Made by a program: the position numbers and the translations under genes. Of a DNA stretch of 64,000 nt, positions 13,565 through 60,816 are shown piece after piece (position 1 is the first letter of the stretch; every line of letters starts with the position of its first letter). The stretch comes from Nonomuraea terrae (GTDB taxonomy: Bacteria; Actinomycetota; Actinomycetes; Streptosporangiales; Streptosporangiaceae): assembly GCF_004348995.1 (NCBI RefSeq), contig NZ_SMKQ01000002.1:62001-126000 (forward strand). Direction: 5' to 3'. A model generated the notes under the pieces. It saw only the letters and a list, made by a program, of their open reading frames with translations, did no database searches and was not told where the DNA came from.

Positions 13565-14707
13565 ATGGGCATGACAGGCATTCACCCCTTCCGCATCGAC
13601 GTACCGCAGGACCAGATCGACGATCTCCACACGAGGCTGGCCGCCGCCCGCTGGCCGGACGAGCTGCCCGGGGTCGGCTGGAGCCGGGGCGTCCCGGTCG
13701 GATACCTGCGGGAGCTCGCCGACTACTGGCGCACCGGTTACGACTGGCGCGCGCACGAGGCCGCGCTGAACGGGCACCCCCAGTTCACCACCGCCGTCGA
13801 CGGCCAGAACGTGCATTTCCTGCACGTCCGCTCCCCCGAACCGGACGCCCTGCCGCTGCTCCTGCTGCACGGCTGGCCGGGCACCTTCGCGGACTTCCTC
13901 GACGTCATCGGCCCGCTGTCGGACCCCCGGTCCCACGGAGGCGACCCCGCCGACGCCTTCCACCTGGTGATCCCGTCGCTGCCCGGGTTCGGCTGCTCCA
14001 CGCCGCTGGCCGGGCCCGGCATGAGCGCCGCCAGGATGGCCGGCGTCCTGGTCGAGCTGATGTCCCGGCTCGGCTACGACAGGTACGGCGTGCAGGGATA
14101 CGACACCGGCTCGTGGGTCGCCCCCGAGATCGGCAAGCAGGCGCCCGACCGGGTCGCCGGCGTCCACGTCAACGCCATGATCACTTTCCCGGCCGGCGTG
14201 GAAGGCGAGATGGACGGTCTCAGCGAGGCCGAGCAGCGGCGCTGGCAGGCGATGCAGGACTTCAACGACGGCTACCTGCAGTGCAACTCCAAGCGCCCGC
14301 AGACCGTGGCGTACGGGCTGCACGACTCCCCCGTCGGCCAGCTCGCCTGGATCGTCGAGAAGTACAAGGAGCTCACCGACCCGGTGGACGGGCTGCCCGA
14401 GGATAGCGTCTCCCGCGACCGCATGCTCACCACCGTCTCCCTGTACTGGCTGACCGGCACGGCGGCGTCCTCCGCGCAGGTCTACTACGAGGAGATGACC
14501 GCCGCCGGCTGGGGCGAGCCGCAGCGCGGGACCGTGCCGACCGGCGTGCTGGTCTCCGCCCACGACGTGACCGTTCGGCTCTGGGCCGAACGCGACCACC
14601 ACATCGTGCACTGGACCGAGCTCGACTCCGGCGGCCACTTCCTCGCCATGGAGGCGCCGCCGGCACTCGTCGGCGACGTCCGCCTCTTCTTCGGGAAGCT
14701 GCGCTGA
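13565..14707 (+). CDS. Epoxide hydrolase, EHN-type alpha/beta hydrolase
   Basis: A 380-residue epoxide hydrolase. The N-terminal EHN domain begins [20 protein letters not shown]. The oxyanion-hole motif HGWPG is near residue 102, nucleophile Asp in QGYDTGSW near 179, and catalytic His in SGGHFLAME near 357. It opens epoxides to diols through an alkyl-enzyme ester and has no signal peptide. ATG 13565 and ATG 13571 are both possible, and the nearby -10-like sequence suggests a leaderless message. An HTH_42 protein gene follows at a 1-bp gap. Confidence 0.9.
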
Positions 14708-14708
14708 C

Positions 14709-15812
14709 ATGGGCGACCGGCTGAGCAAGCGAGCGCTGGGCCGAGCGCTGCTCGACCGGCAGTTCCTGCTGCGGCGCGCGGACCTGCCGGCGGTCACGGC
14801 GGTCGAGCGGGTGTTCGGGCTCAACGCGCAGAGCCCGAACCAGCCGTACCTGGCGCTGTGGAGCAGGCTCGACTCCTTCACGATCGCCGGCCTGACCGCG
14901 GCCATCGAGGACCGGTCGCTGGTGCGCTCGACGATGATGCGGGCCACCCAGCACCTGATGTCGGTGCCGGACTTCCGGTTCGTCCGACCGGTGCTGGCGC
15001 CGCTGCTGCGCCGCGTGCAGCGCAACACGTTCGGCCGGCGCACCGCGGGCGTGGACCTCGACGCTCTGGTCGAGGAGGCGCGCGAACTCCTCGACGGCCG
15101 TGTCGTGACCCGGCCCCAGCTGGGCAGGCTGCTCGCGCAGCGCCGGCCGGCCGCCGACCCGACCGCGCTCGGCTGGAGCGTCCAGTACCTGGAACCGCTG
15201 GTCCACCCCGCGCCCAGCGGCACATGGAACGTCTACGGCCCGACCCCCTGCGCCCGCGCCGACTGGACCGGGGTACGGCCGGAGGCGACGGCGGAGGACG
15301 TACGCCGGATGGTCCGCCGCTATCTGGCGGCGTTCGGCCCGGCGAGCGTCTCCGACGCCCGCGTCTGGTCCGGCGTCAGCGGGCTGCGTGAGATGTTCGA
15401 GCAGTTGCGCCCGGAGCTGCGGGTGTACACCGACGAGTCCGGCCGGGAGCTGTTCGACCTGCCCGACCGGCTGATTCCGGCGGCGGATCTCCCGGCGCCG
15501 GTGCGGTTCCTCCCGGAGTTCGACGCGCCCCTGCTCGCCCACGCCGACCGCGGCCGGATCATGACCGACGAGATCCGCCGTCAGGTCTGCGTCGGCGACG
15601 CCATCGCCGCCACGGTCCTCGTGGACGGCGCCGTGGCGGCGACGTGGACGACCTCGCACGACGACGGCGCCGCCGTCCTGACCGTGCGGCCGCTGCGGCC
15701 GCTGCGGCCGTGGTCACCCGCCGACCGGGACGCCGTCGAGGCCGAGGCCGCCCGGCTGCTCGCCTTCACCCACCCGGACGCCGGCGGGCATGACGTACGG
15801 CTGGCCGGCTGA
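14709..15812 (+). CDS. Winged-helix HTH_42 protein, AlkZ-like fold
   Basis: A 367-residue protein of the HTH_42 family, which includes the interstrand-crosslink glycosylase AlkZ/YcaQ. The diagnostic segment FGLNAQSPNQPYLALWSR sits near residues 38-55, followed by STMMRATQHLM and winged-helix repeats. AlkZ uses a QxQ catalytic motif; here the first Gln is Asn (N-A-Q), so base-excision activity is uncertain. The gene follows the epoxide hydrolase by 1 bp and probably shares its message. Repair or resistance linked to reactive epoxides is a tempting inference, not shown. Confidence 0.82.
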   Translation: MGDRLSKRALGRALLDRQFLLRRADLPAVTAVERVFGLNAQSPNQPYLALWSRLDSFTIAGLTAAIEDRSLVRSTMMRATQHLMSVPDFRFVRPVLAPLLRRVQRNTFGRRTAGVDLDALVEEARELLDGRVVTRPQLGRLLAQRRPAADPTALGWSVQYLEPLVHPAPSGTWNVYGPTPCARADWTGVRPEATAEDVRRMVRRYLAAFGPASVSDARVWSGVSGLREMFEQLRPELRVYTDESGRELFDLPDRLIPAADLPAPVRFLPEFDAPLLAHADRGRIMTDEIRRQVCVGDAIAATVLVDGAVAATWTTSHDDGAAVLTVRPLRPLRPWSPADRDAVEAEAARLLAFTHPDAGGHDVRLAG

Positions 15813-17309
15813 TCAGGAGACGGTGTCGGCGACGACGTGGACGAGGTTGCGCGTCTGCCCGACGATGGCCAGCCGCCACGCGTCGAAGGTCGGGTCGCTG
15901 GGCCGGAAATCGGTCTCGAAGTGCTGCATGTCCGGCGTGTGGATGTGGCCGGCCGGGATGTCGAGGCCCATGCGGTCGCGCAGCAGCGTGTTCCGGTAGG
16001 CGCTCTCGTTCGACAGGTAGTTGCCGCCGCCACCGCTGTAGGAGCACGATCCGGGGTCGGGCGGGGTCGGAGCGGTCGGCGGCGGGTACTCGACCGGCGG
16101 CGGGTCGTTCCGCGTCTGCCGGGCGGTGGCGGCGCAGTCGGGGAACTGCGTGTAGTTCGTGTGCCAGACCACGCCGAAGGCGACGGACGGGTCCGGCCAC
16201 GTGTCGCCCGGCGGCCGGGGGATGGAGGCGCCCGTGTTCGCCTTGATCATCTCGGCGATGGGCAGGGTGGCGGAGGTCCACTGGGGCGGCTCGGTCAGGC
16301 TGAAATCGGCCGGCCCGCCCCAGCGTTCCACCACGGAGCTGTTGCACGCGTTGTTGTCCACGGCCAGCTGCGGCACGCCGCCGGCCGGCGCGCACGGCCG
16401 GACCTTGTCGTTGCCCGGCGAGACGCCGTGGTAGCGCGCGTTCCACTGCTCCAGGTTGAACGCCGCGCCGCCCGCCTGGCTGATCGTGATGGACGCGTCC
16501 ACCCGCTTCGGCCCCGGGCGCATGAACGGCCCGACGGTGTCCTCCAGATAGCCGCGCTCGAACTCGGGATAGTTGACCGGCAGCGTGTAGGCCTCGATCC
16601 GCGCGATCCCGCCGCTCTTCGTCCGGTACGTGGTGCCGTCCAGGGCGAGTGCGGTCGCCCCCGACGGGTTGCCGTGCCGGATGTTGTTGCCGACCGTCCC
16701 CGGCGCGGGGCCGGTCGTTCCGCCGTCGAGCGTGTACGGGTCGAAGCCGCTGGCGATGACCCGCCTGACGCCCTTCCCGCTGGGGAGGTCGATGTCGAAC
16801 ATGCCGCGGGAGGCGCGGTCGAACCGGGTGATCAGCTCGGTCCGCTCGGCGGCGGACAGCCGGAACTTCGGCGTCCACTGCCGCAGGACGGCGGTCGACT
16901 CCAGCCGGGTCCAGTAGAGCGGCCGGTCGTCGCTGTAGGGCAGGTCGCCTCGGACCGGCTCCCGCTGCTGGGCCCGCCGTACGGCGTCGCGCCAGAGCTC
17001 CTCGCCCGCGCGCAGGACGAGCGCCGTGGTGGCCTTGAGGCTCGTCGTCCGGCAGAGGTCACGGGTCAGCGCCGGGGTGAAGCCCTGGAAGCCGCCGCCC
17101 TCGATCATCTGACGGGCGAACGTGCGCGACTGCGGCACCGCCGGGTCGTCGGCGTCGGGCAGGGTCAGCCCCAGCCGTTCCTCCTCCACCGACAGGGCCG
17201 CCCCGGAGTCGAGGCATCCGCGCTCGCTCCGCGCCGAGACCGGCCCCGCCGTGGCGAGCAGGGTCACGGCCGCCAGGGCCAACGCCGCCCCGCGTCGTAG
17301 GTACGTCAT
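15813..17309 (-). CDS. Secreted pyroglutamyl-peptidase-like (C15 fold) protein, probable pseudoenzyme
   Basis: A 498-residue protein with a signal peptide (1-26, cut near VSARS), about 150 unassigned residues, and a region resembling C15 pyroglutamyl peptidase. Matching blocks are IASGFDPY (186-192), NPS (214-216), ITISQAGG (274-281), NLEQW with a conserved-position Glu287, and GHIHTP (454-459), equivalent to the catalytic-His motif. The block that should carry Tyr-x-Cys-Asn reads AYRN (437-440), so the nucleophile Cys appears replaced by Arg. Known C15 enzymes are cytosolic and about 215 residues long. An exported, extended form without Cys suggests a binding or structural role. Strong promoter and AGGAGGT site upstream. 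Confidence 0.65.
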   Translation of the reverse strand: MTYLRRGAALALAAVTLLATAGPVSARSERGCLDSGAALSVEEERLGLTLPDADDPAVPQSRTFARQMIEGGGFQGFTPALTRDLCRTTSLKATTALVLRAGEELWRDAVRRAQQREPVRGDLPYSDDRPLYWTRLESTAVLRQWTPKFRLSAAERTELITRFDRASRGMFDIDLPSGKGVRRVIASGFDPYTLDGGTTGPAPGTVGNNIRHGNPSGATALALDGTTYRTKSGGIARIEAYTLPVNYPEFERGYLEDTVGPFMRPGPKRVDASITISQAGGAAFNLEQWNARYHGVSPGNDKVRPCAPAGGVPQLAVDNNACNSSVVERWGGPADFSLTEPPQWTSATLPIAEMIKANTGASIPRPPGDTWPDPSVAFGVVWHTNYTQFPDCAATARQTRNDPPPVEYPPPTAPTPPDPGSCSYSGGGGNYLSNESAYRNTLLRDRMGLDIPAGHIHTPDMQHFETDFRPSDPTFDAWRLAIVGQTRNLVHVVADTVS

Positions 17310-17341
17310 GGCGCCCTTACCTCCTGCCCGCAGATGATCAG

Positions 17342-17370
17342 ACCTTACGAATCGTTCAACAATCCGTCAA
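17342..17370 (-). promoter_or_regulatory. Sigma70-type promoter for the C15-like gene
   Basis: On the minus strand TTGACG (17370-17365), a 17-bp spacer, then TAAGGT (17347-17342). The AGGAGGT ribosome site lies at 17325-17319, before ATG 17309. The -35 and -10 hexamers are close to the housekeeping consensus, so constitutive expression is likely. Confidence 0.65.
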
Positions 17371-17385
17371 TAGGTCACGTTGGAC

Positions 17386-19005
17386 CTATGAGGCGGCGAA
17401 CGGGATCGTGTCCGGCCGGCACGTGGCGCCCTTGGCGGGCAGTGTGCCGTCGACGAGGTAGCGGGACGTCGCGGTCACCACGCAGCCGGACTGCTGGGCC
17501 GCCACGTGCCCCCACCCCTCGTTGATCAGCAGGCGGCTGCCGGGCAGCATGTCGTGCACGCGCTGCGCCGACCACACCGGAGTCGCCGGATCGAACCTGC
17601 TGCTCAGGATGAGCACGGGCTCTCGGGTGCGGGCGTGCCACGGCCCCCGGTGCCGGAGCTTGTTCGCGCTGTGCCAGGGCACGCAGGGGCTGCTCTCGTA
17701 CGCCCGCAGCGTCCCGAACGGCGCCGCGTCCCGGTCGCGTTCCGCCGCGAGCCGCTCCAGCGCCCGGGCACTTCGCGGCCCGTCCGTCTCACCGCAGGTC
17801 ACCGCGTGGTAGGCGGCGACGATCGGGCTGGTGTACGGCGTGCCGCCGATGCCGGCCTGCTGCAGCAGCACCACGTCGGCCGCGAGGGATCCGCCCGCCG
17901 GGCCGGACGGATCCTCGATCGCCTCGGCGACCGCCTTCAGGAACGGCGCCCCGCCGCCCTGCTCGTTCCAGAACATCGGCTGGTACAGCCAGCTCCCGGT
18001 CCACGTCACCACGAAGGAGTAGGTGAGCGGGACGGTCGCGCCGTCGCTCGCCTTGAGCCGCACCGGCCCCCGGCGCAGCACGTCGAGAATGCGGTCGAAC
18101 GCCGCCTCCGGGTCCCCGCCGCCGAACGCGCACCGCTCACCGGCCTCCTCGCACAGCCGGAAGAACTCCTCCAGCGTGCGCCTGGTGGCCACGTCGCTGC
18201 CGGTACGGGCCGACGGCGTGGTGCCCGGCCCGCCCGCGTCCCGCCGGGTGGGGTCGAGGACGCTGTCGAAGACGAACCGCCCGGTCCTGTTCGTGAACAT
18301 GTTCGCGTAGACCATGCCGAGGTAGGTGCCGTACGACTGGCCCAGGTAGTTCAGCCGGTCCTCGCCGAGGGCCGCGCGCACCACGTCGAGGTCGCGGGCG
18401 ATCGCGACGGTGCTGACGTGGTCGAGCAGGTCGCCCCCGCGCTTGCGGCACAGGCTCGCGTACCGGGCGTCGGCCTTCGCCCGCTGCCTGCGTTCCCCGG
18501 CCGTCACCGGCGCGTTGGACACGCCGCTGGCCAGCGCCTCGGCCTCCTTCGCGTCCGCGAAGCACCGTACGGCCGGCACGCTCCGCCCGGAGCCGCGCGG
18601 GTCGACGCCGACGATGTCGTACCTGGCCAGCACGTCGGCGTTCACCGGGCCGGGCAGGGCGCCGGTGACGATGCCCTGCAGGTAGTCGACGGCCGAATAT
18701 CCGGGGCCGCCCCGGTTCACCACCAGGGAGCCCGCTCGCTTGGCCCGATCCGCGGCGGGGATCCTGGCCAGCGCCAGCGTCACCCTCCGGCCGCGCGGGC
18801 GCGTGTAGTCCAACGGCACCTCAGCGGTGGCGCACTGTAATCGCGGCGCGTCGGCGCACGCCGTCCACGTCAGCTCCGGCACCCGTACCCCGGGCACTCC
18901 CCCGGCGGGGATTTCGCGAGCCTGCGCCACGGCGGCCATCGGCGGTGCGGTGGCCACGACCATCGCCAGCGACGCCAGCAGTGTTCCGGCTAAACGCCAT
19001 TTCAT
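17386..19005 (-). CDS. Secreted TAP-like tripeptidyl aminopeptidase, S33 alpha/beta hydrolase
   Basis: A 539-residue exported hydrolase. ATG 19005 has GGGAGAAG upstream and opens a signal peptide ending near AVAQARE. Oxyanion motif VVNRGGPGYS (about 95-104), nucleophile Ser224 in GQSYGTYLG, and a C-terminal TAP domain with Asp in SSRFDPATP and His in GWGHVAAQ complete the triad. The family removes N-terminal peptides from secreted proteins. A separate promoter for the downstream C15-like gene lies in the 76-bp gap, so the two are only partly coupled. Confidence 0.88.
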   Translation of the reverse strand: MKWRLAGTLLASLAMVVATAPPMAAVAQAREIPAGGVPGVRVPELTWTACADAPRLQCATAEVPLDYTRPRGRRVTLALARIPAADRAKRAGSLVVNRGGPGYSAVDYLQGIVTGALPGPVNADVLARYDIVGVDPRGSGRSVPAVRCFADAKEAEALASGVSNAPVTAGERRQRAKADARYASLCRKRGGDLLDHVSTVAIARDLDVVRAALGEDRLNYLGQSYGTYLGMVYANMFTNRTGRFVFDSVLDPTRRDAGGPGTTPSARTGSDVATRRTLEEFFRLCEEAGERCAFGGGDPEAAFDRILDVLRRGPVRLKASDGATVPLTYSFVVTWTGSWLYQPMFWNEQGGGAPFLKAVAEAIEDPSGPAGGSLAADVVLLQQAGIGGTPYTSPIVAAYHAVTCGETDGPRSARALERLAAERDRDAAPFGTLRAYESSPCVPWHSANKLRHRGPWHARTREPVLILSSRFDPATPVWSAQRVHDMLPGSRLLINEGWGHVAAQQSGCVVTATSRYLVDGTLPAKGATCRPDTIPFAAS

Positions 19006-19088
19006 GCCCGCTTCTCCCGTCTCCGTTTCCCGCCTTTGATTTTTCCGAGACACGTAACGCGACGGCAGTCGCCGATGTCATCAACACA

Positions 19089-19125
19089 CATGACATCTGT
19101 CATGCGATTCCGGTGATTATCACCG
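19089..19125. promoter_or_regulatory. Two perfect palindromes in a divergent regulatory region
   Basis: CATGACA-TC-TGTCATG (19089-19104) and CGGTGAT-T-ATCACCG (19111-19125) are both perfect. They stand between the TAP-like peptidase (minus) and a small membrane-protein operon (plus), next to a third pair of repeats. Two different palindrome sequences suggest two different regulators. Confidence 0.6.
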
Positions 19126-19138
19126 GGCGGAGGCCTGC

Positions 19139-19189
19139 TTCAGGAAGCCTGAAGGTCATGTGCTAGGTTTCAGGCACCCTGAAGGTCAT
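19139..19189. promoter_or_regulatory. Duplicated operator TTCAGG-N3-CCTGAA-GGTCAT
   Basis: Two 21-bp copies, 19139-19159 and 19169-19189, start exactly 30 bp apart. Each contains a perfect TTCAGG-N3-CCTGAA dyad plus GGTCAT. They flank a -10-like TAGGTT (19164-19169) and end just before the ribosome site of the next gene, so a protein bound there would block transcription. The regulator is not identifiable here. Confidence 0.7.
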
Positions 19190-19200
19190 TGGGAGAACCC

Positions 19201-19659
19201 ATGGAAGATTTCCTGCTGTCGGTGCATGTGCTCGCCGGCATCGTGTTCATCGGAGGCTCGGCGGTCGCGACCAGCCTGTTCCCGCGCTACGTGCCCGTCG
19301 CCGTACCGGAAGGCGCCTCGCAGCCGGACGAGCGCAGCCGCGCCGTGGCCGTCGCGCTGCACCGCATCACCCGCGGCTACAGCCTCTTCGGCGTCGTCGT
19401 GCCCGCCGCCGGTCTGATCCTCGCCTTCGTCCAGGGGCGCACCGGCGAGATCTGGATCACCCTCGCCATGATCCTCACCGCCGCCGCAGGCGTCCTGCTG
19501 GCCCTGCAGATCCATCCCCGGCAACGCCATGCGCTCGACACCCTCGTCGACCGCGACCGGCTGCGCCCGCTCTCCATGATCGCCGGCTTCTACAACCTCC
19601 TGTGGGCGATCGTGGTCGTCCTGATGATCGTCCGCCCCGGCGCCCCCGAGGGTTTCTGA
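19201..19659 (+). CDS. Four-helix integral membrane protein, DUF2269-like
   Basis: A 152-residue membrane protein. ATG 19201 has GGGAG at spacing 7. Four hydrophobic helices are visible, at about 3-25, 55-75, 80-100 and 125-145. VHVLAGIVFIGG and HRITRGYSLFGVVVP resemble DUF2269/copper-resistance-like small membrane proteins. It overlaps the next gene by 1 nt and sits under the duplicated TTCAGG operator. Function unknown. Confidence 0.65.
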   Translation: MEDFLLSVHVLAGIVFIGGSAVATSLFPRYVPVAVPEGASQPDERSRAVAVALHRITRGYSLFGVVVPAAGLILAFVQGRTGEIWITLAMILTAAAGVLLALQIHPRQRHALDTLVDRDRLRPLSMIAGFYNLLWAIVVVLMIVRPGAPEGF

Positions 19660-19913
19660 TGGAACGCACCCTCCGGGCCGCGGCCGCCGTCGAGGCCGTC
19701 TCTCTGGTGATCCTCCTGGTCAACGTGTTCACCGTGCACAACGAGTCGATCACCTCACTCGGCGGCCCCCTGCACGGCTCGGCCTACCTCACCGTCATCG
19801 TGACCACGCTGCTGCTGACCCCGGCCGCCGGCACCCGCCGGCGCGCCGCCATCCCGGGCATCGGCGGCCTGCTCGCCGTACGCCGCCTGCGCCGCCACTC
19901 CCCCGGCGATTGA
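19659..19913 (+). CDS. Small membrane protein, DUF3817-like
   Basis: An 84-residue protein starting at ATG 19659, which overlaps the previous stop (TGATG). Helix 1 (about 5-27) contains AVEAVSLVILLVNVF and helix 2 (about 40-58) contains LHGSAYLTVIVTTLLL; the tail is basic. The Glu in the first helix and the HG before the second recall DUF3817. It is co-translated with the preceding membrane protein and followed after 14 bp by the HD::ECF41 chimera. Confidence 0.6.
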   Translation: MERTLRAAAAVEAVSLVILLVNVFTVHNESITSLGGPLHGSAYLTVIVTTLLLTPAAGTRRRAAIPGIGGLLAVRRLRRHSPGD

Positions 19914-19927
19914 GAAGGGACACCGTC

Positions 19928-21076
19928 ATGGACGCCTACGGAAGCCTGCCGTTCCCCTGGAGCACACTGACGCTGAACGCGATCCGCTTCGCCCAGGACC
20001 CGGAGAAGCCCGCGATCTTCAACCACAGCATGCGCGCCTACCTGTACGGACGCTTCCTCGGCGAGCGGCAAGGGCTTCGGCCCGGCCACGACTACGACGA
20101 CGAGCTGCTGTTCCTCGGCTGCCTGCTGCACGACGCCGGCCTCAGCGACCAGGCCAACGGCGACCAGCGCTTCGACCTCGACGGCGCCGACCTGGCCGCC
20201 GAGTGGCTCACCGGTCAGGGGCTGCCGCCGGAGAAGGTGGAGATCGTCTGGGACGCGATCGCCCTCCACCTGTGTGTCGAGGTCGCCGCCCGCAAGCGCC
20301 CCGAGATCGCCCTGGTCAGCGCCGGCGCCGGCTACGACCTCGGCCCCGAGGGCCCCGCCCTGCCGCCCGGCTACGCGGACCGCGTCCACGCCGGGCCGTG
20401 GCTGCCCGATCCGCCGCTCACCGACCCGTACGAGGACCCGGAGCGCTCGGCGGAGCTGGCCGACTCGGTGTCGATGGCGGCCCTGTTGCTGCTCGAACGG
20501 CTCAGCCCGCTGGAGCGGGCGGTCTTCGTGCTGCGCGAGGTGTTCGGGTTCGGCTTCCCGGAGATCGCCTCGGCGGTGGGACGCTCGGAGGCGGCCTGCC
20601 GCCAGCTCGCGGTGCGGGCCCGCCGCCACATGGACGAGGGCCGCCCCCGCTTCGAGGCCGACCGGCAGGCAGGCGAGAAGCTCACCGCACGATTCTTCGA
20701 CGCCTTCAAGGAAGGGGACGTCGACGGGTTGCGGGAGCTCCTCGCCGCCGACGTTCACATGGTCGGCGACGGCGGCGGCAAGGGCCCGCAGTGGAAGCCC
20801 GTCTTCGGCGCCGAGAACGTGGCCCGGGTGCTCGCCGCGATCGTCCCGCCGTTCATCCGGATCGGCGGCGTGGTGGAGCCGCACGAGGTGAACGGCCGCC
20901 CAGGCGCGATCTTCCGCGACCGCGACGGCAAGGTCGTCAACACGCTGGCGCTCGACATGCTCGACGGCCGGATCCAGACGATCCGCGCCGTGACCGACCC
21001 CGACGAACTGGCCCGCCTGGGCCCGGTGGCCGACGCCCGAGCCGTGATCCGCGCCGCGGCCCGGTCTTTGGCGTAG
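19928..21076 (+). CDS. Chimera: HD-domain hydrolase fused to the sigma4/SnoaL-like half of an ECF41 sigma factor
   Basis: One open 382-residue frame from ATG 19928, with GAAGGGA upstream. Residues 1-153 are a cyanamide-hydratase-like HD hydrolase (His33 in FNHSMRAY; LLHDAG at 67-71). The HD-family gene at 48.5-49.2 kb aligns with this part only. From residue 156 the sequence switches to GPWLP, a sigma region 4 (LSPLERAVFVLREVFGFGF, RQLAVRARRH) and a SnoaL-like domain with DGGG at 281-284 and DPDEL at 357-361. That is the back half of an ECF41 factor, as in the intact gene at 59.9 kb. Sigma region 2 is absent, so it cannot bind core polymerase or a -10 element normally. It looks like a deletion fusion of two neighbouring genes; expression is unproven. 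Confidence 0.7.
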   Translation: MDAYGSLPFPWSTLTLNAIRFAQDPEKPAIFNHSMRAYLYGRFLGERQGLRPGHDYDDELLFLGCLLHDAGLSDQANGDQRFDLDGADLAAEWLTGQGLPPEKVEIVWDAIALHLCVEVAARKRPEIALVSAGAGYDLGPEGPALPPGYADRVHAGPWLPDPPLTDPYEDPERSAELADSVSMAALLLLERLSPLERAVFVLREVFGFGFPEIASAVGRSEAACRQLAVRARRHMDEGRPRFEADRQAGEKLTARFFDAFKEGDVDGLRELLAADVHMVGDGGGKGPQWKPVFGAENVARVLAAIVPPFIRIGGVVEPHEVNGRPGAIFRDRDGKVVNTLALDMLDGRIQTIRAVTDPDELARLGPVADARAVIRAAARSLA

Positions 21077-21180
21077 ATGTTCAGCAGGTGGCTCTTGACC
21101 GTGGCCTCGGTGATGAACAGCCGGGCGGCCGCCTCACGGTTGGTGTTCCCGGCCGCCACGAGTTCGAGGACCTCGGGGTC
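21070..21180 (-). pseudogene. LuxR-type HTH fragment of a response regulator
   Basis: On the minus strand a 36-codon stretch reads EVLELVAAGNTNREAAARLF then ITEATVKSHLLNIYAK, the DNA-binding helix-turn-helix of a NarL-type regulator. It has no receiver domain before it: the preceding bases belong to an ABC ATPase fragment in another frame. The C-terminal residues after IYAK are also missing. It ends against the stop of the HD::ECF41 frame, so it is a remnant between two deletion joints. Confidence 0.75.
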
Positions 21181-21404
21181 ACCTCGGCGCGGTCCCGGAG
21201 CGGATCCAGCCCGAACACCTTGATCTCGCCCCGGTCCGGCGCACGGAGACCCTCGACGCACTCCACGGTCGTCGTCTTGCCGGCGCCGTTCGGGCCGAGG
21301 ATCCCGAGGATCTCGCCCTCCTGAACGGTGAGCGAGACATCGTCGACCGCGACGTTGTTCCCATAACGCTTGTGGAGGTTCCGTACCTCGATCACTGGTG
21401 GCAT
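21180..21404 (-). pseudogene. ABC transporter ATPase, N-terminal 75 residues only
   Basis: From ATG 21404 on the minus strand: VIEVRNLHKRYG, then Walker A GPNGAGKTTT, and up to GLDPLRDRAEV, as in drug-type ABC ATPases (about 300 residues when whole). The Q-loop, signature motif and Walker B are gone. The frame runs into the LuxR fragment. The truncation is clean, and no permease gene remains nearby. Confidence 0.8.
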
Positions 21405-23254: not shown

Positions 23255-23992
23255 GTGCGCCGTTATTCACGTGTCGTGGCCAAGTTGAGCGGCGAGGCGC
23301 TCGCGGGAGACGCCGGTTGGGGCACCGATCCCGCCAGCCTGGCGCAGTTGGCGGATGAGATCCTGTCGGTTCACGAGCTCGGCGTCCAGGTCGCGGTCGT
23401 CATCGGCGGTGGCAATTACTTCCGGGGCAGGATGGCCGAGGGATGGGGCATCGGCCGGGCCGAGGCCGACAACATCGGCATGCTCGGCACGGTCATGAAC
23501 GCGCTGATGATGCGCGGCGTGCTCACCGCACGTTCCACGACAGATGTGCGAGTGATGACCGCGGTGCCCATGCAGAGCGTGGCAGAGCCCTTCATCCGGC
23601 TCCGCGCCGACCGTCACCTGCGCCGTGGGCTGATCGTGCTGCTCGCCGGCGGCATCGGCCAGCCGTACGTCACGACGGACTATCCCGCGGTCCAGCGGGC
23701 TCTGGAGCTCGACGCGGATGCGCTGCTGGTGGCCAAGCGCGGTGTCGACGGCGTGTACGACAGCGACCCGAACATCAACCCCGACGCGAAGCGGTACACC
23801 ACCCTCACATACCGGGAGGCTCTGGCGGCCGGCGTGAAAGTCATGGATGAGAGCGCGTTCGTGCTCGCCAACGAGCAGAGGCTTCTCATGCACGTCTTCG
23901 ATGTGGCGGCAAAGGGCGCGATGAAGGCGATCTGCGAGGGCGAGGACGTGGGGACGCGGATCACCCACGATGCGGTGGCCCCGCGGGCATGA
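23255..23992 (+). CDS. pyrH: UMP kinase (PyrH-type) paralogue
   Basis: A 245-residue amino-acid-kinase fold protein. GTG 23255 follows GAAGGGA. Motifs are KLSGEALAG, VIGGGNYFRG, DNIGMLGTVMNALMM, the UMP site YVTTDYPAVQRALEL, VDGVYDSDP and KVMDESAFVLA, all as in bacterial UMP kinase. In actinobacteria pyrH normally sits with rpsB/tsf/frr; none of these is here, so this is probably an extra copy or a specialised kinase. YVTTD replaces the usual FFTTD. Neighbours give no pathway hint. Confidence 0.82.
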   Translation: MRRYSRVVAKLSGEALAGDAGWGTDPASLAQLADEILSVHELGVQVAVVIGGGNYFRGRMAEGWGIGRAEADNIGMLGTVMNALMMRGVLTARSTTDVRVMTAVPMQSVAEPFIRLRADRHLRRGLIVLLAGGIGQPYVTTDYPAVQRALELDADALLVAKRGVDGVYDSDPNINPDAKRYTTLTYREALAAGVKVMDESAFVLANEQRLLMHVFDVAAKGAMKAICEGEDVGTRITHDAVAPRA

Positions 23993-24174
23993 CGCGTGTG
24001 ATCGAGAATCCACGAAACCCCTCAACGAGAGGCGGCAGCCCTCCGGATGAATCCCGTCCATAACCGCGATCCGCAGGCCCCGATTAAGAATCGCCGAGAA
24101 CACTCGGATACCCCATGAACTGGGGCCCGGTCCGGCCATCGCCTCATGTCAATTAGTGCTACAAATGACCGTCC

Positions 24175-25188
24175 ATGGGGATCTTTCGCCGCCGGAAGTT
24201 ATCGCGGTATGCCAGTGAGAACATGGTCGTCGGGCGCACCTGGACAGACGCCGCTCTGGACGCCGGCGTCGAGTTGGTGAGCCAGGGGCACCTTCAAGCG
24301 GGGATCGCCCTGCTCTCGGAGACTCATGACGATCCTGAGCTGCGTTCGCTGAGGACGGAAGCGCTCGGTGACGCCGCGATCGGCCGGAGCCGGGAGATCA
24401 TGGAGTTGCTGGACGAGGCCGACCATCCGGCGGACGTCCTCCTGTGGCTCGGCCGTACGATCATCAATGAAGCGTGGGCCATTCGCGGCGGTGGTTACGC
24501 CTCCACGGTCGGCAGCGATCGGTTCAAGATGTTCTTCGCCACTTTGTCCACCGCGCATGAGCCGCTCATGGAGGCGGCCCGACTGCGTCCGGACGATGCC
24601 GTGCCGTGGGAGTCCATGATCTGGTACGGCCTGGGCATGCAACTCGACCGGTCGGAGGAAGATGCGATCTGGGCCGAGATCACCTCTCGGTGCGACACCC
24701 TGTTCTCCGCCCATTGGGCCAGGCTCCAGGCGGTGAGCGCGAAATGGGGCGGGTCCCATGAGGACATGTTCGCGCACGCCCGTAGCGCGGTGGCGCTGGC
24801 TCCACCGGGCAACCCGCTCACGGCCATGCTCGCGTTGGCGCATCTGGAGTACCTGCTCGCCGAGGAGACCCGGCTGGTGCAGGAGAGCACATTGATGGCC
24901 TACATGAAGTTCAGCATGGCCTACTTCTCCGAGACGGTGCTCAGCGAGTTGAAGGAGGCCGAGAGCCGCTGGACGACCGGCAAGCGGTCACATGTACGAG
25001 ATGTCGACGCCCACCACCTGTTCGGTGCGATCTTCTTCCAGACCAGGGACACGTACGACCTGGCCGCACGGCATCTCTCCCAGGTAGGCAACCGGGTCGG
25101 GGAGGCCGCACCGTGGGGTTACCGCGGCGACCCGGCCGAGGAGTTCGGCAAGGCCCTGCAGAAGCTCAAGCTTCCCCTTCCCCATTAG
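24175..25188 (+). CDS. Uncharacterised helical-repeat protein
   Basis: A 337-residue soluble protein of unknown function. It is almost all helical, with TPR-like pairs: GVELVSQGHLQAGIALLSE, HEPLMEAARLRPDDAVPWES, HARSAVALAPPGNPLTAM. It also has a conserved-looking central WYGLGMQLDRSEEDAIWAE. No signal peptide, membrane helix or catalytic motif is seen. ATG 24175 has no clear ribosome site; TACAAA 11 bp before it may be a -10 of a leaderless message. The fold resembles large unnamed actinobacterial families. I do not assign a function. Confidence 0.7.
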   Translation: MGIFRRRKLSRYASENMVVGRTWTDAALDAGVELVSQGHLQAGIALLSETHDDPELRSLRTEALGDAAIGRSREIMELLDEADHPADVLLWLGRTIINEAWAIRGGGYASTVGSDRFKMFFATLSTAHEPLMEAARLRPDDAVPWESMIWYGLGMQLDRSEEDAIWAEITSRCDTLFSAHWARLQAVSAKWGGSHEDMFAHARSAVALAPPGNPLTAMLALAHLEYLLAEETRLVQESTLMAYMKFSMAYFSETVLSELKEAESRWTTGKRSHVRDVDAHHLFGAIFFQTRDTYDLAARHLSQVGNRVGEAAPWGYRGDPAEEFGKALQKLKLPLPH

Positions 25189-25234
25189 GACTCTCGCTGT
25201 CATGGCGGAGTGAGCGCTTTTCGTCCTCCGGCTG

Positions 25235-25360
25235 CGTGGTGATTCTGAAGGACTGCGACGGCCTTGCACAGGTAGCCGGCCTTGCCGGGGCTGCAGCGGA
25301 GCTTGCGGAGAATGCGCCAGCTCTTGAGCTGCGCATGTGCACGTTCGCCCGGGCCGCCGC
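25235..25360 (-). pseudogene. IS5-family transposase, C-terminal remnant
   Basis: The minus strand encodes GERAHAQLKSWRILRKLRC followed by SPGKAGYLCKAVAVLQ, which matches the conserved C-terminus of IS5-group DDE transposases, where the Glu of the triad lies in GERANAQLK. The rest of the transposase and any terminal repeats are absent. The remnant marks an old insertion between the unknown helical protein and the next membrane protein. Confidence 0.7.
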
Positions 25361-25466
25361 GGCTGAGAGGTCCTCCTCTGGGACGACGCCGTCGCGACCT
25401 CCGGAGGAGTCGGCCAAGACCCGGTGACGATGTGCGGGGCACCGCCGCGGCGGCAGATTGGGCCGG

Positions 25467-26480
25467 GTGAACACCTCTCCTCCAGGAAACCGCCGTACGA
25501 TCGTGCCGGTCCTGATCACCGCCGTATGGTCGGTGGGTTATCTGCCCCTCGGCCTGCTCTGGGCTCTCGGAGGGCCCGGATATCCGTTCGACGCCGGCCG
25601 TGCGGGGGCGGGCAACACCCTGCTCGACCCTCTTCCGGCGGCGGCCGGCGGCGGCGTGCTGGCGATGTCGGCGCTGGTGGCCGGCGTCGTCGCCGTGCTC
25701 GCCACCAGAGGCCCGCTCAACCGGGCCCCCGCCGTTGTGGCCGTCGTGGCCGGCGTCGGCCTGGCGGTGCTCCTGCCCGACGTGCGCATCATGATGACCG
25801 CCGGGTACCTGCCGGTGATGCTGGCCGCCGCACTCGCCGGCCAGGCCGAGTTCTCGATGATCGCGACCATGCTGACGTGGCCCAGCGTCAACCTGCTCAT
25901 CCTGATGGCGGCCGGCGTCAGCCTGATGCTCTTGGGGACGCGCGCGCTGATCGGAGGGCCCGGGCGGTCCGGCAGCGCCACCGGCGCGCTACGGATCGGG
26001 CGGTATGCGACCGCTGTCGCGGTCGCCGTCCCCGTCGTCTACGCCGTCACCCGCTTCGGCTGGCTCCTGGGCGTGCCCGTCGGCATCAGCGACCAGTTCC
26101 TGGCCTACATCGCCGAGATCACCCCGATCGGCGCCGGTCTCAGCACGCTCGGTCTCGTCGGCGCGGTCCTGACCGTCGGCCTGGTCCGGCCGTGGGGTGA
26201 GAGCTGGCCGCGCTGGGTGCCGTTCCTGCGCGGGCGGCCGATCCCGGCGCGATTCCCCGCCTACTCGGCTCTGGCCGTCTCCCTCCCCATCACCTCCGCC
26301 GGACTGATGTACGTCCGCAAGAAGCTCACCGGCGAGCAGGTCGGCCCGGCGGGGGCGGCCGACGAGCTGGGCGCCTGGCTGCCGGAGATGTTGTGGCCGC
26401 TGTGGGGTGTGGCCCTGGCGGTGGCCGCGCTGGCGTACCTCTCCCGCCGCCGGCACCTCGCTCAGGCACGCCGACCATAA
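25467..26480 (+). CDS. Polytopic membrane protein co-transcribed with a two-component system
   Basis: About 337 residues with nine or so hydrophobic helices and no recognised catalytic motif. The start is GTG 25467 (TTG 25458 is also possible). The stop codon overlaps the kinase ATG by 1 nt, so the membrane protein, kinase and regulator form one operon. It may be a permease-like sensor partner or the system's target. Function unknown. Confidence 0.75.
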   Translation: MNTSPPGNRRTIVPVLITAVWSVGYLPLGLLWALGGPGYPFDAGRAGAGNTLLDPLPAAAGGGVLAMSALVAGVVAVLATRGPLNRAPAVVAVVAGVGLAVLLPDVRIMMTAGYLPVMLAAALAGQAEFSMIATMLTWPSVNLLILMAAGVSLMLLGTRALIGGPGRSGSATGALRIGRYATAVAVAVPVVYAVTRFGWLLGVPVGISDQFLAYIAEITPIGAGLSTLGLVGAVLTVGLVRPWGESWPRWVPFLRGRPIPARFPAYSALAVSLPITSAGLMYVRKKLTGEQVGPAGAADELGAWLPEMLWPLWGVALAVAALAYLSRRRHLAQARRP

Positions 26481-27754
26481 TGGTGGGCGTGCGTGAGTCC
26501 CCGTCCCCTGCCGGCGCCGCGGTGGACTCGTTTCTCAACCGGCATCAGGTGAGCGCCGATGCCGTGCTCGCCGTCCTGCTCGTCCTGCCGCTCGGCCTGG
26601 TCTCGTTGAGCCTGCTCCGGGCCTCGGACAGTCCCCTGTCGCTCCGCCTGCTCGCGGGTCTCGGCCTGCTGGTGCTGCATGGTTGCGTCGTTCCGCGTCG
26701 GCTGCGCCCGCTGGCGGCGTACGGACTGGCCGCCGCGGCGATGCTGCTGCTGGTGGCGCTGCCGCCCCTGCACGACCCGGGCGGCGCCTACTATCCGGCG
26801 GTGCTGCTGCCGAGCACGCTGGTCTTCGGGCTGCTGCTCTACACGGCGTCCGGCCGGCTCGAACTGCTGCCCAGCCTGGTCTGCCTGGCCGTCACCCTGA
26901 CGGGAGTGGTCCTGGTCCTGGCGCGTCTGTGGAATCCGGCCTCGTGGGGCGGCTCGTCGGGCTCCTACGAGCTGGTCGCGTGGCGGATCGGGCTGTCGGT
27001 CGGCCTGGTCGCCGCGGCGGCGTGCCTCTGGTCGCTGGGGCGTCTCAGCCGGATGCGGGTGTTGTTCCTGTCCGAGCTCAGAGCGAAGGCCGGGCGCGCC
27101 GAGGCCGACCGTGCGCGGGAGCGGAAGGAGGCGGCGCGGGCGGAACGCGACCGCATCAGCCGGGAGATGCACGACGTGGTGTCCCACTCGCTCGCCGTCA
27201 TGGTCAGCCAGGCGGAGGGCGGCAGGCTGTCCGATCCGGACTCGCCCGGGGCGGGTGTGTTCGCCACCATCGCCGGGGTCGGGCGCGAGGCCCTGCGCGA
27301 CATGCGCGGGCTCCTGGGCGTGCTGCGCGCCGACGGCGGCACCGCTCCGCAACCGGGCCTCGGCGACCTCTCCGACCTGCTCGACCATGTGCGAGATACG
27401 GGCGTACGCGTCACCGTACAGGAGGTCGGGGACGCCCGGCCGCTGCGCCCCGCCGTCGACCTGACCGCCTATCGCGTCATCCAAGAGGGGCTGACCAACG
27501 TCATCAAGCACGCGGGGGAGACGGCCTCGGCCGACATGACGCTGGCGTGGCGCCCGGACGGACTGCACATCACCATCACGAACGACGGCGCCGGGCCGCC
27601 CGCCGAAGAGGCCGGCGTCGGGCTGACCGGGATGCGCGAACGTCTCAGCATGGTGGGAGGCACCCTGGAGGCCGGCAGACGCCCCGGCACCGGCTTCGAA
27701 CTGTCGGCCACCGTGCCCTATGAGCCGAGGAGTCTTCCATCATCAGGATCATGA
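26480..27754 (+). CDS. NarL-class sensor histidine kinase
   Basis: A 424-residue kinase with about six membrane helices (residues 20-195), a charged coiled-coil linker, HisKA_3 with the phospho-acceptor in ISREMHDVVSHSLAVMV, and HATPase_c with YRVIQEGLTNVIKHAG and VGLTGMRERL. ATG 26480 overlaps the upstream TAA; GTG 26489 is an alternative. It overlaps the response regulator by 4 nt. The organisation is typical of actinobacterial stress or antibiotic-sensing pairs; the signal is unknown. Confidence 0.9.
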   Translation: MVGVRESPSPAGAAVDSFLNRHQVSADAVLAVLLVLPLGLVSLSLLRASDSPLSLRLLAGLGLLVLHGCVVPRRLRPLAAYGLAAAAMLLLVALPPLHDPGGAYYPAVLLPSTLVFGLLLYTASGRLELLPSLVCLAVTLTGVVLVLARLWNPASWGGSSGSYELVAWRIGLSVGLVAAAACLWSLGRLSRMRVLFLSELRAKAGRAEADRARERKEAARAERDRISREMHDVVSHSLAVMVSQAEGGRLSDPDSPGAGVFATIAGVGREALRDMRGLLGVLRADGGTAPQPGLGDLSDLLDHVRDTGVRVTVQEVGDARPLRPAVDLTAYRVIQEGLTNVIKHAGETASADMTLAWRPDGLHITITNDGAGPPAEEAGVGLTGMRERLSMVGGTLEAGRRPGTGFELSATVPYEPRSLPSSGS

Positions 27755-28392
27755 TCGTCGACGACCAGGAGTTGCTGCGCAACGGCCTGACCATGGTCGT
27801 CAGGTCCCAGCCCGACGTGGAAGTGGTCGCCGAGGCCGCTGACGGCCTGGCGGCCCTGAAGGCGTTGGAGTCGCGGCGCGTCGACGTGGTGGTGATGGAC
27901 ATCCGTATGCCCCGAATGGACGGTGTCACCGCCACCCGGGAGATCCAGCGGCTGGACGACCCGCCGAAAGTGCTGGTGCTGACCACGTTCGACCTCGACG
28001 AGCACGCCCTGGCCGCGCTGCGCGCCGGTGCGAGCGGGTTCATGCTGAAGGACGCGCCAGGAGAGGAGATCGTCGCTGCGATCCGGCACGTGCACCGGGG
28101 CGACTCGATCATCGCGCCCGCCACGACCCGGCGGCTCATCGGGCGGCTCGTCACGAAGGCCGACACCGACCCGGACGCCGTGCTCAACGTGCTCACGGAG
28201 CGCGAGCGTGAAGTCTTCCTCAGCCTGGCCCGAGGCGCGTCCAACGCCGAGATCGGGGCCGAGCTGTTCTTGTCGGAGACCACGGTCAAGACGCACGTGG
28301 GGCGCATCCTGACGAAGCTCGGGCTGCGCGACCGGGTCCAGGCGGTGGTCATGGCGTACGAATCCGGCGTTGTCATTCCCGGCGAGCGTTAG
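27751..28392 (+). CDS. NarL/FixJ response regulator
   Basis: At least 213 residues. The receiver has VDDQE, phospho-acceptor Asp in VVVMDIRMPRMDG and Lys in FMLKDAPG; the LuxR HTH is LTEREREVFLSLARGASNAE with ETTVKTHVGRIL. ATG 27751 overlaps the kinase stop, but most relatives start about four residues earlier (M-x-I-R-I-M-I-V-D-D). Here the codons before ATG are ATC ATC AGG ATC, and GAGGAG at 27727-27732 is placed for a start at 27739-27742, so an AUC start is possible. Confidence 0.9.
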   Translation: MIVDDQELLRNGLTMVVRSQPDVEVVAEAADGLAALKALESRRVDVVVMDIRMPRMDGVTATREIQRLDDPPKVLVLTTFDLDEHALAALRAGASGFMLKDAPGEEIVAAIRHVHRGDSIIAPATTRRLIGRLVTKADTDPDAVLNVLTEREREVFLSLARGASNAEIGAELFLSETTVKTHVGRILTKLGLRDRVQAVVMAYESGVVIPGER

Positions 28393-28440
28393 ACACTGGC
28401 ACCGATCAAAACAAGTGCTTGTCTGTGTGAGCCTGAAGAT

Positions 28441-28469
28441 GGAGGGGATGAGGTGTGCTCACCCCCTCC
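28441..28469. terminator. Bidirectional hairpin terminator
   Basis: A 12-bp stem (GGAGGGGATGAG with CTCACCCCCTCC, one G-U pair) and the loop GTGTG. It lies between the convergent response-regulator and beta-lactamase-like genes. No U-tract. Confidence 0.7.
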
Positions 28470-28474
28470 GGGAA

Positions 28475-29413
28475 TCAGCCGGCGGCAGCCGGTGCTGGGT
28501 GTCCAAGCCCGTGGAGATGGTCGTAGACGGCCAGTCCGATGTTCTGCACGATCGGGTTGCCGATCCGCTGAGCCTCGTTGTAGCTGGTCGTCGTGGTCAC
28601 CTCGGTGAGCACGACGACCGCGGTCTCATGCCCGGGGACCAGGAAATAGCCCACATCGTGGGTGACGTTGCCGGTCTCTCCGGTCTTGTGAGCGATCGGC
28701 TTGCCGGCCAGAACCGCCCCGAACTTGGTGTCGACCTCCTGGTGCAGCATCCAGTCCGCGATCTGGTCCGTGGACGTGCGCGAAAGGAGCCGGCCGGAGT
28801 ACGTCGCCTTGAGCAGCGAGAGCGTATCCGCGGCATCGATGGCATTCGTCGGAGCGGTGATGAGATCGCCCGGGAACATCTGCCGGTTGAACTTCATCGT
28901 CTTCAGCCCGAGATCGTCCAGCAGCGCCTGAACCGTCGGTATCCCGACGTAGTACAGCAGGACGTTCGTGGCGGTGTTGTCGCTGACGACCACCATCCGG
29001 CGCGCGAGTTCACGCACTGTGGTGTTGAACGGCATGTGCTCGTTCTGGATGGTGCCGCTTCCCCCCACGACCATGTACGGCGAGACCGTCACCGGGGCGT
29101 CGAGCGAGATGAGGCCGCGGTCGACCTGTCGCATCAGGGTGGCCAGCAGGGAAAGCTTGATGACGCTGGCCGGGTTGTAGGAGGCCACCGAGCCGAGGAT
29201 CGCGCTCTGGCCGTTGGGACGGCTCAGGTCCGCCAGACCGACCGAGACCCGGACGCCGTGTGCCGCGGCATCGTCGACGAGCGGCTGCACGATGCCGGTC
29301 AGCTGCTTGAGGTCCGTCTTCTGCGGATCAGCGGTCGCCGGGGAGACGAACAAACCCACGCAGACCGTCAGCACGGCGGCGACGATCGCCACGCGACGTA
29401 GACGCAGGCCCAT
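28475..29413 (-). CDS. Class A beta-lactamase-like secreted serine hydrolase
   Basis: A 312-residue exported protein. ATG 29413 has GGAAAGA upstream and opens a signal peptide ending at TADPQ. The penicillin-recognising motifs are present: SVIK (Ser83-Lys86), SDN (144-146) and KTG (243-245). I cannot find the Glu166-type ExxLN omega-loop motif expected after SDN; the segment reads LGLKTMKFNRQMFPGD. Genuine beta-lactam hydrolysis is therefore doubtful, and a peptidase or DD-peptidase-like role is possible. An AT-rich 400-bp leader region lies upstream. Confidence 0.82.
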   Translation of the reverse strand: MGLRLRRVAIVAAVLTVCVGLFVSPATADPQKTDLKQLTGIVQPLVDDAAAHGVRVSVGLADLSRPNGQSAILGSVASYNPASVIKLSLLATLMRQVDRGLISLDAPVTVSPYMVVGGSGTIQNEHMPFNTTVRELARRMVVVSDNTATNVLLYYVGIPTVQALLDDLGLKTMKFNRQMFPGDLITAPTNAIDAADTLSLLKATYSGRLLSRTSTDQIADWMLHQEVDTKFGAVLAGKPIAHKTGETGNVTHDVGYFLVPGHETAVVVLTEVTTTTSYNEAQRIGNPIVQNIGLAVYDHLHGLGHPAPAAAG

Positions 29414-48533: not shown

Positions 48534-49223
48534 TCAGCTCGGCCAGGGCGAGCCGACGATGCGCTCGACCGTCGTCGTGCGCTGGAAGCCGGGGATGAAG
48601 TGCTCGAGCACGTCGGAGTTCACGGTGCCGTTCGTGGTTTCTGGGCGGTTCTTGAGCCCGTCGACGTAGGCTCGCAGGAACTCGTTCTTGAAGTCCCCTC
48701 GTGGGTGGACGGCGAGGATTTCGTCCAGCTGATCGGGTTCCAGCCCGTCCAGGCCGAAGCCGATCGCGTCGGTCAAGACGCCGAGGTGTGTGGTGGCGAT
48801 CTCCGGGGCCATCCGGCCGGGGATGCCCGGCGTGGTGTGCAGCGCGATCGCCGTCCAGACGGTCTCGGCCGCTGCCGTCGAGAAACCACGGTCCAGGAGG
48901 AACTCGCGCGCGTGGTCGGCGCCATCGACTTCGAAGCGCTGCTCGACGTCGGAGAAGGGAGCCAGGAGGCCGACGTCGTGGAACATGGCCGCCAAGTAGA
49001 GCAGCTCCGGGTCCGGTTTCACGCCGAGCTTGTCAGCGTGGATCAGGCCGAAGAAGAAGACCCGCCGGGAGTGGTGATAGATGAGAGGGCTGGTCGTCTC
49101 CTGGATGAGCATGGTCGCTTCGGCGACCGCCGCTGTCTCAGGAATCTCCAACCCCGCGATGACCTCTGGCATGACCTCTGGCTTTCCGGGAAGTGTGTCG
49201 GTTGTGGACCGTGTGTCCGACAT
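48534..49223 (-). CDS. HD-domain hydrolase, cyanamide-hydratase-like
   Basis: A 229-residue metal-dependent HD protein. His in IYHHSRRVFF, the HD pair in MFHDVGLL, FEVDGADHAREFL, and the distal His in IALHTTPGIPG are all present. Related enzymes hydrate cyanamide or act on isocyanides and other small molecules. It aligns over its core with the HD half of the 19.9-kb chimera but contains no sigma domain. It is intact within an otherwise decayed island. Confidence 0.85.
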   Translation of the reverse strand: MSDTRSTTDTLPGKPEVMPEVIAGLEIPETAAVAEATMLIQETTSPLIYHHSRRVFFFGLIHADKLGVKPDPELLYLAAMFHDVGLLAPFSDVEQRFEVDGADHAREFLLDRGFSTAAAETVWTAIALHTTPGIPGRMAPEIATTHLGVLTDAIGFGLDGLEPDQLDEILAVHPRGDFKNEFLRAYVDGLKNRPETTNGTVNSDVLEHFIPGFQRTTTVERIVGSPWPS

Positions 49224-59896: not shown

Positions 59897-60787
59897 ATGG
59901 GCAATGGGCACACGAGTGGCCGGTCTGAGCGGGAGGCCATCCTCGGAGCCGAATGGGAGAGCCACAGGCCTGCGGTTTTCGGCGTGGCCTACCGGCTGCT
60001 GGGCAGTGTGGCCGATGCCGAGGACGTGACCCAGGACGTGTGGTTGCGGGCGGCCGGAACGGATCTGCGGGGTATCGATGATCTGCGGGCCTGGCTGGTG
60101 ACGGTGGCCGCACGGCGGTCGTACGACATTCTCAAGAGTGCCCGTTTCCGCCGGGAGACCTACGTCGGGCCGTGGCTGCCGGAGCCACTGCTGACGGGGC
60201 CGGACGCATCCGAGCCGGTCCTCGTCGATGAGTCCGTCGGCTCGGCGATGCTCCTGATCATGGAGGAGTTGAGCCCGCCGGAGCGGGTGGCCTTCGTCCT
60301 GCACGATGTCTTCGGTCTTGAGTTCGGCCGGATCGCCGAAGTGCTGGATGTCTCCGTGCCGAGTGCCCGGCAACTGGCCTCACGGGCGCGGCGGCGGGTG
60401 GCCAACGCGAAGCAGTCTTCGCCACAGGCGTCGCAGGCGGAGCGTGAACGTGTGCTGGCGGCCTTTCGCGCCGCGTACGAGGCCGGGGATCTGGCTGGGC
60501 TGGTCAGGCTGTTGCACCCGGACGCCCTCTACGTCACCGACGGCGGCGGCAAGGCCGCCGCGATGCGCAAGCCCGTCTACGGTGGTGAGCGCGTCGCTGA
60601 GGTGCTGGTGCGGGTGGGCCGCCAGTGGCGGCCGGACCGCATCGACCTCGTCGAGGTCGGTGGCGAGCTCGCCCTGGCGTTTTACCGGAAGGGCCGTGTC
60701 TACTCCGTCGACACTTTGCAGATCGCAGACGGCCTGATCAGCGCGTACCGCAGGGTCATCAACCCGGACAAGCTTTCTCACCTCTGA
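59897..60787 (+). CDS. ECF41-type RNA polymerase sigma factor (SigJ-like)
   Basis: A 296-residue ECF41 factor. Region 2 (about 20-85) has VFGVAYRLLGSVADAEDVTQ, the WLPEP motif follows, region 4 has LSPPERVAFVLHDVFGLEF and SVPSARQLASRARRR, and a C-terminal SnoaL-like extension carries DGGG and ends NPDKL. In this group the extension controls sigma activity in place of an anti-sigma factor. ATG 59897 has GGGAGG about 12 bp upstream; GTG 59885 and an earlier frame are alternatives. A consensus ECF41 promoter follows directly, before an oxidoreductase gene. Confidence 0.92.
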   Translation: MGNGHTSGRSEREAILGAEWESHRPAVFGVAYRLLGSVADAEDVTQDVWLRAAGTDLRGIDDLRAWLVTVAARRSYDILKSARFRRETYVGPWLPEPLLTGPDASEPVLVDESVGSAMLLIMEELSPPERVAFVLHDVFGLEFGRIAEVLDVSVPSARQLASRARRRVANAKQSSPQASQAERERVLAAFRAAYEAGDLAGLVRLLHPDALYVTDGGGKAAAMRKPVYGGERVAEVLVRVGRQWRPDRIDLVEVGGELALAFYRKGRVYSVDTLQIADGLISAYRRVINPDKLSHL

Positions 60788-60789
60788 GC

Positions 60790-60816
60790 TGTCACACCCC
60801 GAGGGGCTGCCTCGTC
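60790..60816 (+). promoter_or_regulatory. Consensus ECF41 promoter
   Basis: TGTCACA at 60790-60796, a 16-bp spacer, and CGTC at 60813-60816. This matches the published ECF41 -35/-10 consensus and spacing as I remember it. It begins 2 bp after the sigma stop codon and points at the quinone-oxidoreductase gene, with a leader of about 155 nt. Confidence 0.75.

Follow-up and report, generated by a model that had tools for sequence, protein, structure and literature searches.

The window, by which we mean the whole 64,000-nucleotide stretch of Nonomuraea terrae DNA analyzed here, contains an uninterrupted forward-strand frame of 382 codons plus a stop at 19928-21076. Residues 1-154 of its product are the front part of an HD hydrolase. 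Residues 155-382 are the linker, region 4 and SnoaL-like extension of an ECF41 sigma factor, without region 2. The features of the locus are collected in Table 1. Pfam places the HD domain at residues 31-121, Sigma70_r4_2 at 184-235 and SnoaL_2 at 254-312, the last with an E-value of 8e-05 and a bit score below the curated cut-off; no model of sigma region 2 is among the Pfam matches listed for the protein. Among the NCBIfam models, TIGR03401 matches residues 7-114 with a score under its cut-off, and the SigX4 and SigJ models match from residue 154, entering at model position 72 or 79. The SigX4 and SigJ scores fall below the model cut-offs, as expected since the protein is partial. A sequence-only reading of this DNA had described a 382-codon open frame in which an HD hydrolase is joined, near residue 154, to an ECF41 factor that keeps region 4 and the SnoaL-like extension, its region 2 being replaced by the HD domain. 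The frame and the domain matches bear out that description in each of its parts.

Table 1. Features at the fusion locus, in window coordinates.
Feature	Position	Strand	Basis or remark
Small gene whose stop overlaps the DUF3817 start; putatively in one operon with the fusion	19189..19659	+	ORF list
DUF3817 gene, its end 14 bp upstream of the fusion start codon	19659..19913	+	Pfam, gene spacing
Codons 1-154 (5' part) of an HD-domain gene, cyanamide-hydratase-like	19928..20389	+	Pfam HD at 31-121; SBT364 relative
Deletion joint with 5-base overlap CGCCG	20389..20393	+	HD-side and ECF-side nearest relatives both have CGCCG
3' part of an ECF41 sigma gene: linker, region 4, SnoaL-like extension	20394..21073	+	Pfam, NCBIfam, N. 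aridisoli relative, SigJ 5xe7
Second deletion joint, from the sigma C-terminal codons to an antisense LuxR remnant	21066..21068	.	21066 = L035 18186, 21068 = L035 18062
LuxR-type response regulator remnant, 121 bp	21068..21188	-	N. aridisoli counterpart 95% identical
Third deletion joint (21178-21188) and remnant of a putative ABC-transporter ATPase gene start	21178..21404	-	ORF translation, alignment to N. aridisoli

The sigma half is recognizably of the ECF41 type. It shares a WLPEP-type linker, region 4 and the SnoaL-like extension with the known ECF41 factors SigJ of Mycobacterium tuberculosis, Ecf41Bli and Ecf41Rsp, and its residues 1-207 align with SigJ (PDB 5xe7). The WLPEP motif is described as characteristic of ECF41 in the available text of PMC3426412. 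Its counterpart here is WLPDP at residues 158-162, which aligns to WLPEP or WFPEP in 27 of the 27 sigma-side relatives given. Region 2 is found by Pfam in the N. aridisoli orthologue of this half. The HD half resembles the cyanamide hydratase family (TIGR03401, PDB 6dk9), except that it lacks roughly the final 30% of the sequence. The predicted structure of the fusion has a mean pLDDT of 64.7, falling below 50 at residues 135-190 around the joint.

The two halves have separate relatives, and the joint between them is sharp. Among the matches listed, the best relative of the HD half is 83% identical over residues 1-155 and comes from Nonomuraea sp. SBT364, while that of the sigma half is an 87% identical protein of N. 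aridisoli (KC333). In the genus search most relatives end at residue 155-156 or begin at 153-154, with a minority beginning at 149-152 and some short pieces. The other genus genomes match only within about residues 1-156 or within about 149-381, among the matches listed. We searched 54 Nonomuraea genomes (53 with a match at E ≤ 1e-40), 341 genomes of the family (136 with a match at E ≤ 1e-75) and 394 of the class (10 with a match at E ≤ 1e-105); the three sets overlap, and each includes the window's own genome (G000). Among the matches listed from these 54, 341 and 394 genomes, residues 1-382 are covered by the window's own genome only. Likewise, none of the best 80 of 85 relatives in a named genome collection, which may omit the window's genome, carries both halves in one protein, and a keyword-level search of the literature found no account of an HD-sigma fusion. 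Because the E-value thresholds were strict, a very divergent fusion could escape these searches. The sequence-only reading had proposed a search for full-length homologues with the same domain order as a check; that none appears among the matches listed counts against a functional fusion. A conserved domain architecture is therefore rejected, within the thresholds used, no second species with the fusion being among the matches listed.

It had also been noticed that both halves have relatives inside the window. These exist, at about 48765-49154 on the reverse strand for the HD half and at about 60155-60799 on the forward strand for the sigma half, but at 36% and 40% identity they are distant paralogues and not donors. 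A fusion of these two genes is rejected, since relatives at 83% and 87% are found in other genomes. Elsewhere in the genus, an HD relative and an ECF41-like sigma gene are divergent neighbors in one genome (L033 3025-4493), and in another (L032 9990-19604) they share a strand, with about 8.5 kb between them. These neighborhoods hint that linkage between the two families recurs.

The origin of the fusion can be traced by comparison with N. aridisoli. Window positions 14000-20033 match its contig C609 at 94%. That contig continues through a broken HD gene and a TGTCACA-n16-CGTC motif and ends after the opening codons of an epimerase gene. The right flank, from window position 20389, matches contig C13 at 91%. 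C13 starts inside the epimerase gene and continues through a complete ECF41 gene, a convergent LuxR-type response regulator (Response_reg and GerE by Pfam) and, behind it, a histidine kinase. The ends of C609 and C13 have 9 bp in common. Mapped onto locus L036, they overlap by exactly 9 bp, and in loci L037, L038 and L039, where the match to C13 begins at its base 6, back-extrapolation gives the same 9-bp overlap. Since the contig ends abut in this way, we infer with good confidence, for N. aridisoli across the two contigs, an ancestral order of HD gene, ECF41-type promoter, epimerase and ECF41 gene. The promoter motif is also present upstream of the epimerase in L036-L039. On the left side, SBT364 (G042) and two further genomes (G009 and G031) are collinear with the window between about 19130 and the joint. 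The N. aridisoli arrangement resembles the ECF41 loci described in the available text of PMC3426412, in which about a third of ECF41 genes have a same-strand partner gene upstream that carries the promoter. As far as that text goes, the partner is a carboxymuconolactone decarboxylase, an oxidoreductase or an epimerase behind TGTCACA-n16-CGTC, and not all members have one.

Relative to this order, the sequence missing from the window is the HD C-terminus, the promoter, the epimerase and sigma region 2, about 1.4 kb in all. The sum consists of about 194 bp of the HD gene (measured from SBT364), about 92 bp of spacer and epimerase start, and 1139 bp of the rest of the epimerase and region 2. Neither an ECF41-type promoter nor an epimerase partner gene was found at the fusion locus. 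The lost epimerase and region 2 have no close copy in the contigs of the window's genome; the best match of this query, 71% over 184 bp, sits beside a paralogous sigma gene. The lost HD C-terminus likewise has no close copy in that genome (best E-value 0.005). The sequence CGCCG stands at the joint place in three of the six HD-side relatives (L028, L029 and L030) and in four of the five ECF-side relatives (L035, L037, L038 and L039). An overlap of at least five bases would occur by chance in about 1% of cases, assuming 72% G+C, so joining through microhomology is likely.

The assembly is a draft of 469 contigs and the overlap at the joint is short, so we considered whether two places had been wrongly joined. 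This is very unlikely. Both flanks are collinear with adjoining N. aridisoli contigs in the expected order, the lost epimerase, region 2 and HD C-terminus are without a close copy in any contig, and the contig holding the joint is 160 kb long. Moreover, a shared stretch of 5 bp is not long enough to lead an assembler astray.

We return to deletion, which the sequence-only reading had mentioned as a fallback in the form of a deletion scar. That fallback is now strongly supported, with the likely ancestral order and the missing 1.4 kb traceable. The Nonomuraea ancestor would have had the HD gene, ECF41 promoter, epimerase and ECF41 sigma gene in that order on one strand. One deletion of roughly 1.4 kb would have taken everything between the front of the HD gene and the back of the sigma gene, and the ends would have joined over 5 bp of microhomology, in frame by chance. 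If made, the product would begin with a truncated HD domain and continue with sigma region 4 and the SnoaL-like extension. The factor's own promoter and its likely target, the epimerase, would have been removed in the joining event itself. Thus, compared with other ECF41 factors, the fusion has had region 2, partner gene and promoter deleted, and because of this, it is to be regarded as a remnant and not as a working member of the family.

The locus has been altered further downstream. A second deletion, of about 123 bp relative to N. aridisoli, lies between the end of the sigma gene and the LuxR gene, and the last codons and stop of the fusion are supplied by this junction with the antisense LuxR remnant. 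About 110 bp beyond the second joint, which clips the end of the fusion, there is a third. There, about 3.2 kb present in N. aridisoli is missing, among it the histidine kinase and most of the response regulator. The reverse-strand piece beyond it presumably belongs to the beginning of an ABC-transporter ATPase gene, judged by eye from a Walker A motif in the translation. The locus is decaying, losing genes through repeated deletions. N. aridisoli has not kept the HD gene intact either; its copy (L148 9340-9539, on C609) has lost an internal segment between two ACAGCATGC-like sites and is frame-shifted. The same HD gene has been lost differently in two related species. Farther to the right, window positions 23970-28475 show several large length differences to N. 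aridisoli (L035). Of this, 25181-28475 corresponds to about 40 bp there, by insertions here or deletions in N. aridisoli.

On the upstream side, the fusion is probably co-transcribed with the DUF3817 gene and the small gene preceding it. Because it stands 14 bp behind DUF3817 in this plausible operon, it is probably expressed. For the HD half, this raises the question of a residual enzyme, one that retains its metal ligands, is still partly active as a hydrolase or hydratase, and carries the sigma part as a passive tail. H33, H68 and D69 all precede the joint and are invariant in seven relatives. They can be aligned with 6dk9, which we take to be yeast DDI2, through the intact SBT364 homologue (stretch 21-115; E-value 0.0006 to 6dk9), and would be candidate ligands; one final ligand could not be placed in this alignment. 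The dN/dS of the HD half is 0.29 against its nearest relative, SBT364. Since the frame is open and the operon plausible, some residual activity may persist. However, intact HD relatives (seven were compared) have about 219-230 residues, and everything past about residue 154, or about 65 C-terminal codons, is gone. This lost part is rich in residues invariant in the seven relatives, such as KAPP and PGEL. In a low-confidence model of the intact protein (mean pLDDT 63.3), a long helix at 149-176 spans the place of the joint, and N. aridisoli has nothing but the broken HD gene at this position. A residual enzyme is, on balance, highly improbable.

The pattern of substitutions was examined for both halves. 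Pairwise dN/dS is 0.32-0.39 for the sigma half (five relatives) and 0.29-0.44 for the HD half (six relatives), with no stops in either half. Against N. aridisoli, the sigma half has a dN of 0.062 and a dS of 0.183. Polarized changes in it number 6 synonymous and 5 nonsynonymous here, versus 10 and 15 in N. aridisoli, counting only sites at which all four outgroups agree and with codon 361 counted on both lineages. HD residues 1-35 give a dN/dS of 1.28 against N. aridisoli, a value set aside because it comes from 11 differences only and a broken gene. The other values and the counts show no extra decay, the polarized changes being seemingly no more relaxed here than in N. aridisoli; they are compatible with a recent deletion and also with a retained chimera. 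Selection on the chimera is not supported, as the dN/dS values and polarized counts cannot separate a recent deletion from retention. The open frame is itself weak evidence of function because, in a simulation with substitutions only, 44% of frames were still open after 40 random substitutions (31% after 58).

Finally, there is the suggestion that the product binds -35-like DNA and antagonizes ECF41 promoters. Without region 2, the fusion is not expected to work as a sigma factor. As a retained chimeric regulator, it would use region 4 and the SnoaL-like part to bind the TGTCACA -35 element or core RNA polymerase, in competition with ECF41 paralogues. Region 4 and the linker motif are intact, the frame is open and in an operon position, the sigma half is matched at 13 other places (E ≤ 2.6e-26), and nine exact TGTCACA-n16/17-CGTC sites are left in the genome, versus two for the reversed control. 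There is also a precedent for a divided sigma factor in SigO-RsoA of Bacillus subtilis, described in the available text of PMC8103513 as a sigma4 and a sigma2 protein; it includes, like the fusion, a protein with sigma region 4 and without region 2. SigO, however, works with a separate region-2 protein, whereas the fusion protein arose by deletion. Against a retained regulator are the deletion of its own promoter and likely target, the lack of a relative with the fusion among the matches listed, the low pLDDT around the joint and the clipping of the sigma C-terminus by the second deletion. In addition, for the two ECF41 factors studied in the available text of PMC3426412, no target was detectable other than the neighboring partner gene. 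Another ECF41 factor controls motility, to go by the title of a reference, so targets beyond the neighbor may exist in some species. Taken together, we consider a retained regulator very unlikely, and the proposed antagonist gained no positive support, its own promoter and likely target being deleted and no second fusion being among the matches listed. It is highly unlikely, too, that the chimera works in trans as a decoy, engaging through region 4 alone the ECF41-type promoters that remain or the sigma factors belonging to them. If it did, it would be a newborn natural sigma antagonist, created by deletion. One of the nine exact ECF41-type motifs lies within the window at 60790-60816, directly after the full ECF41 gene and oriented toward a possible downstream target; at least one such motif also turns up in 16 of 100 shuffles of the window.

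The fusion is thus very probably specific to this lineage, made by one deletion of about 1.4 kb, and by now most likely a decaying chimera that is non-functional or at most residually active. The domain anatomy, the N. aridisoli gene order across two abutting contigs, the lack of a close copy of the lost pieces in this genome and the neighboring deletions are direct observations; that it was a single event, its direction and the loss of function are inferred from them. In-frame gene fusion through deletion between neighboring genes is a known kind of event, and this case resembles such deletion fusions in having same-strand neighbors, loss of the intervening DNA, short microhomology and confinement to one lineage. 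The fusion is ordinary as a type of event and a clean worked example of it. It shows how a single ordinary deletion can produce what looks like a new domain architecture, and here a related species reveals both the joint and the likely ancestral order. Fusions seen in a single genome should not be read as designed regulators. For the ECF41 family, it means that a whole circuit, consisting of sigma factor, partner gene and promoter, would have been lost in one step.
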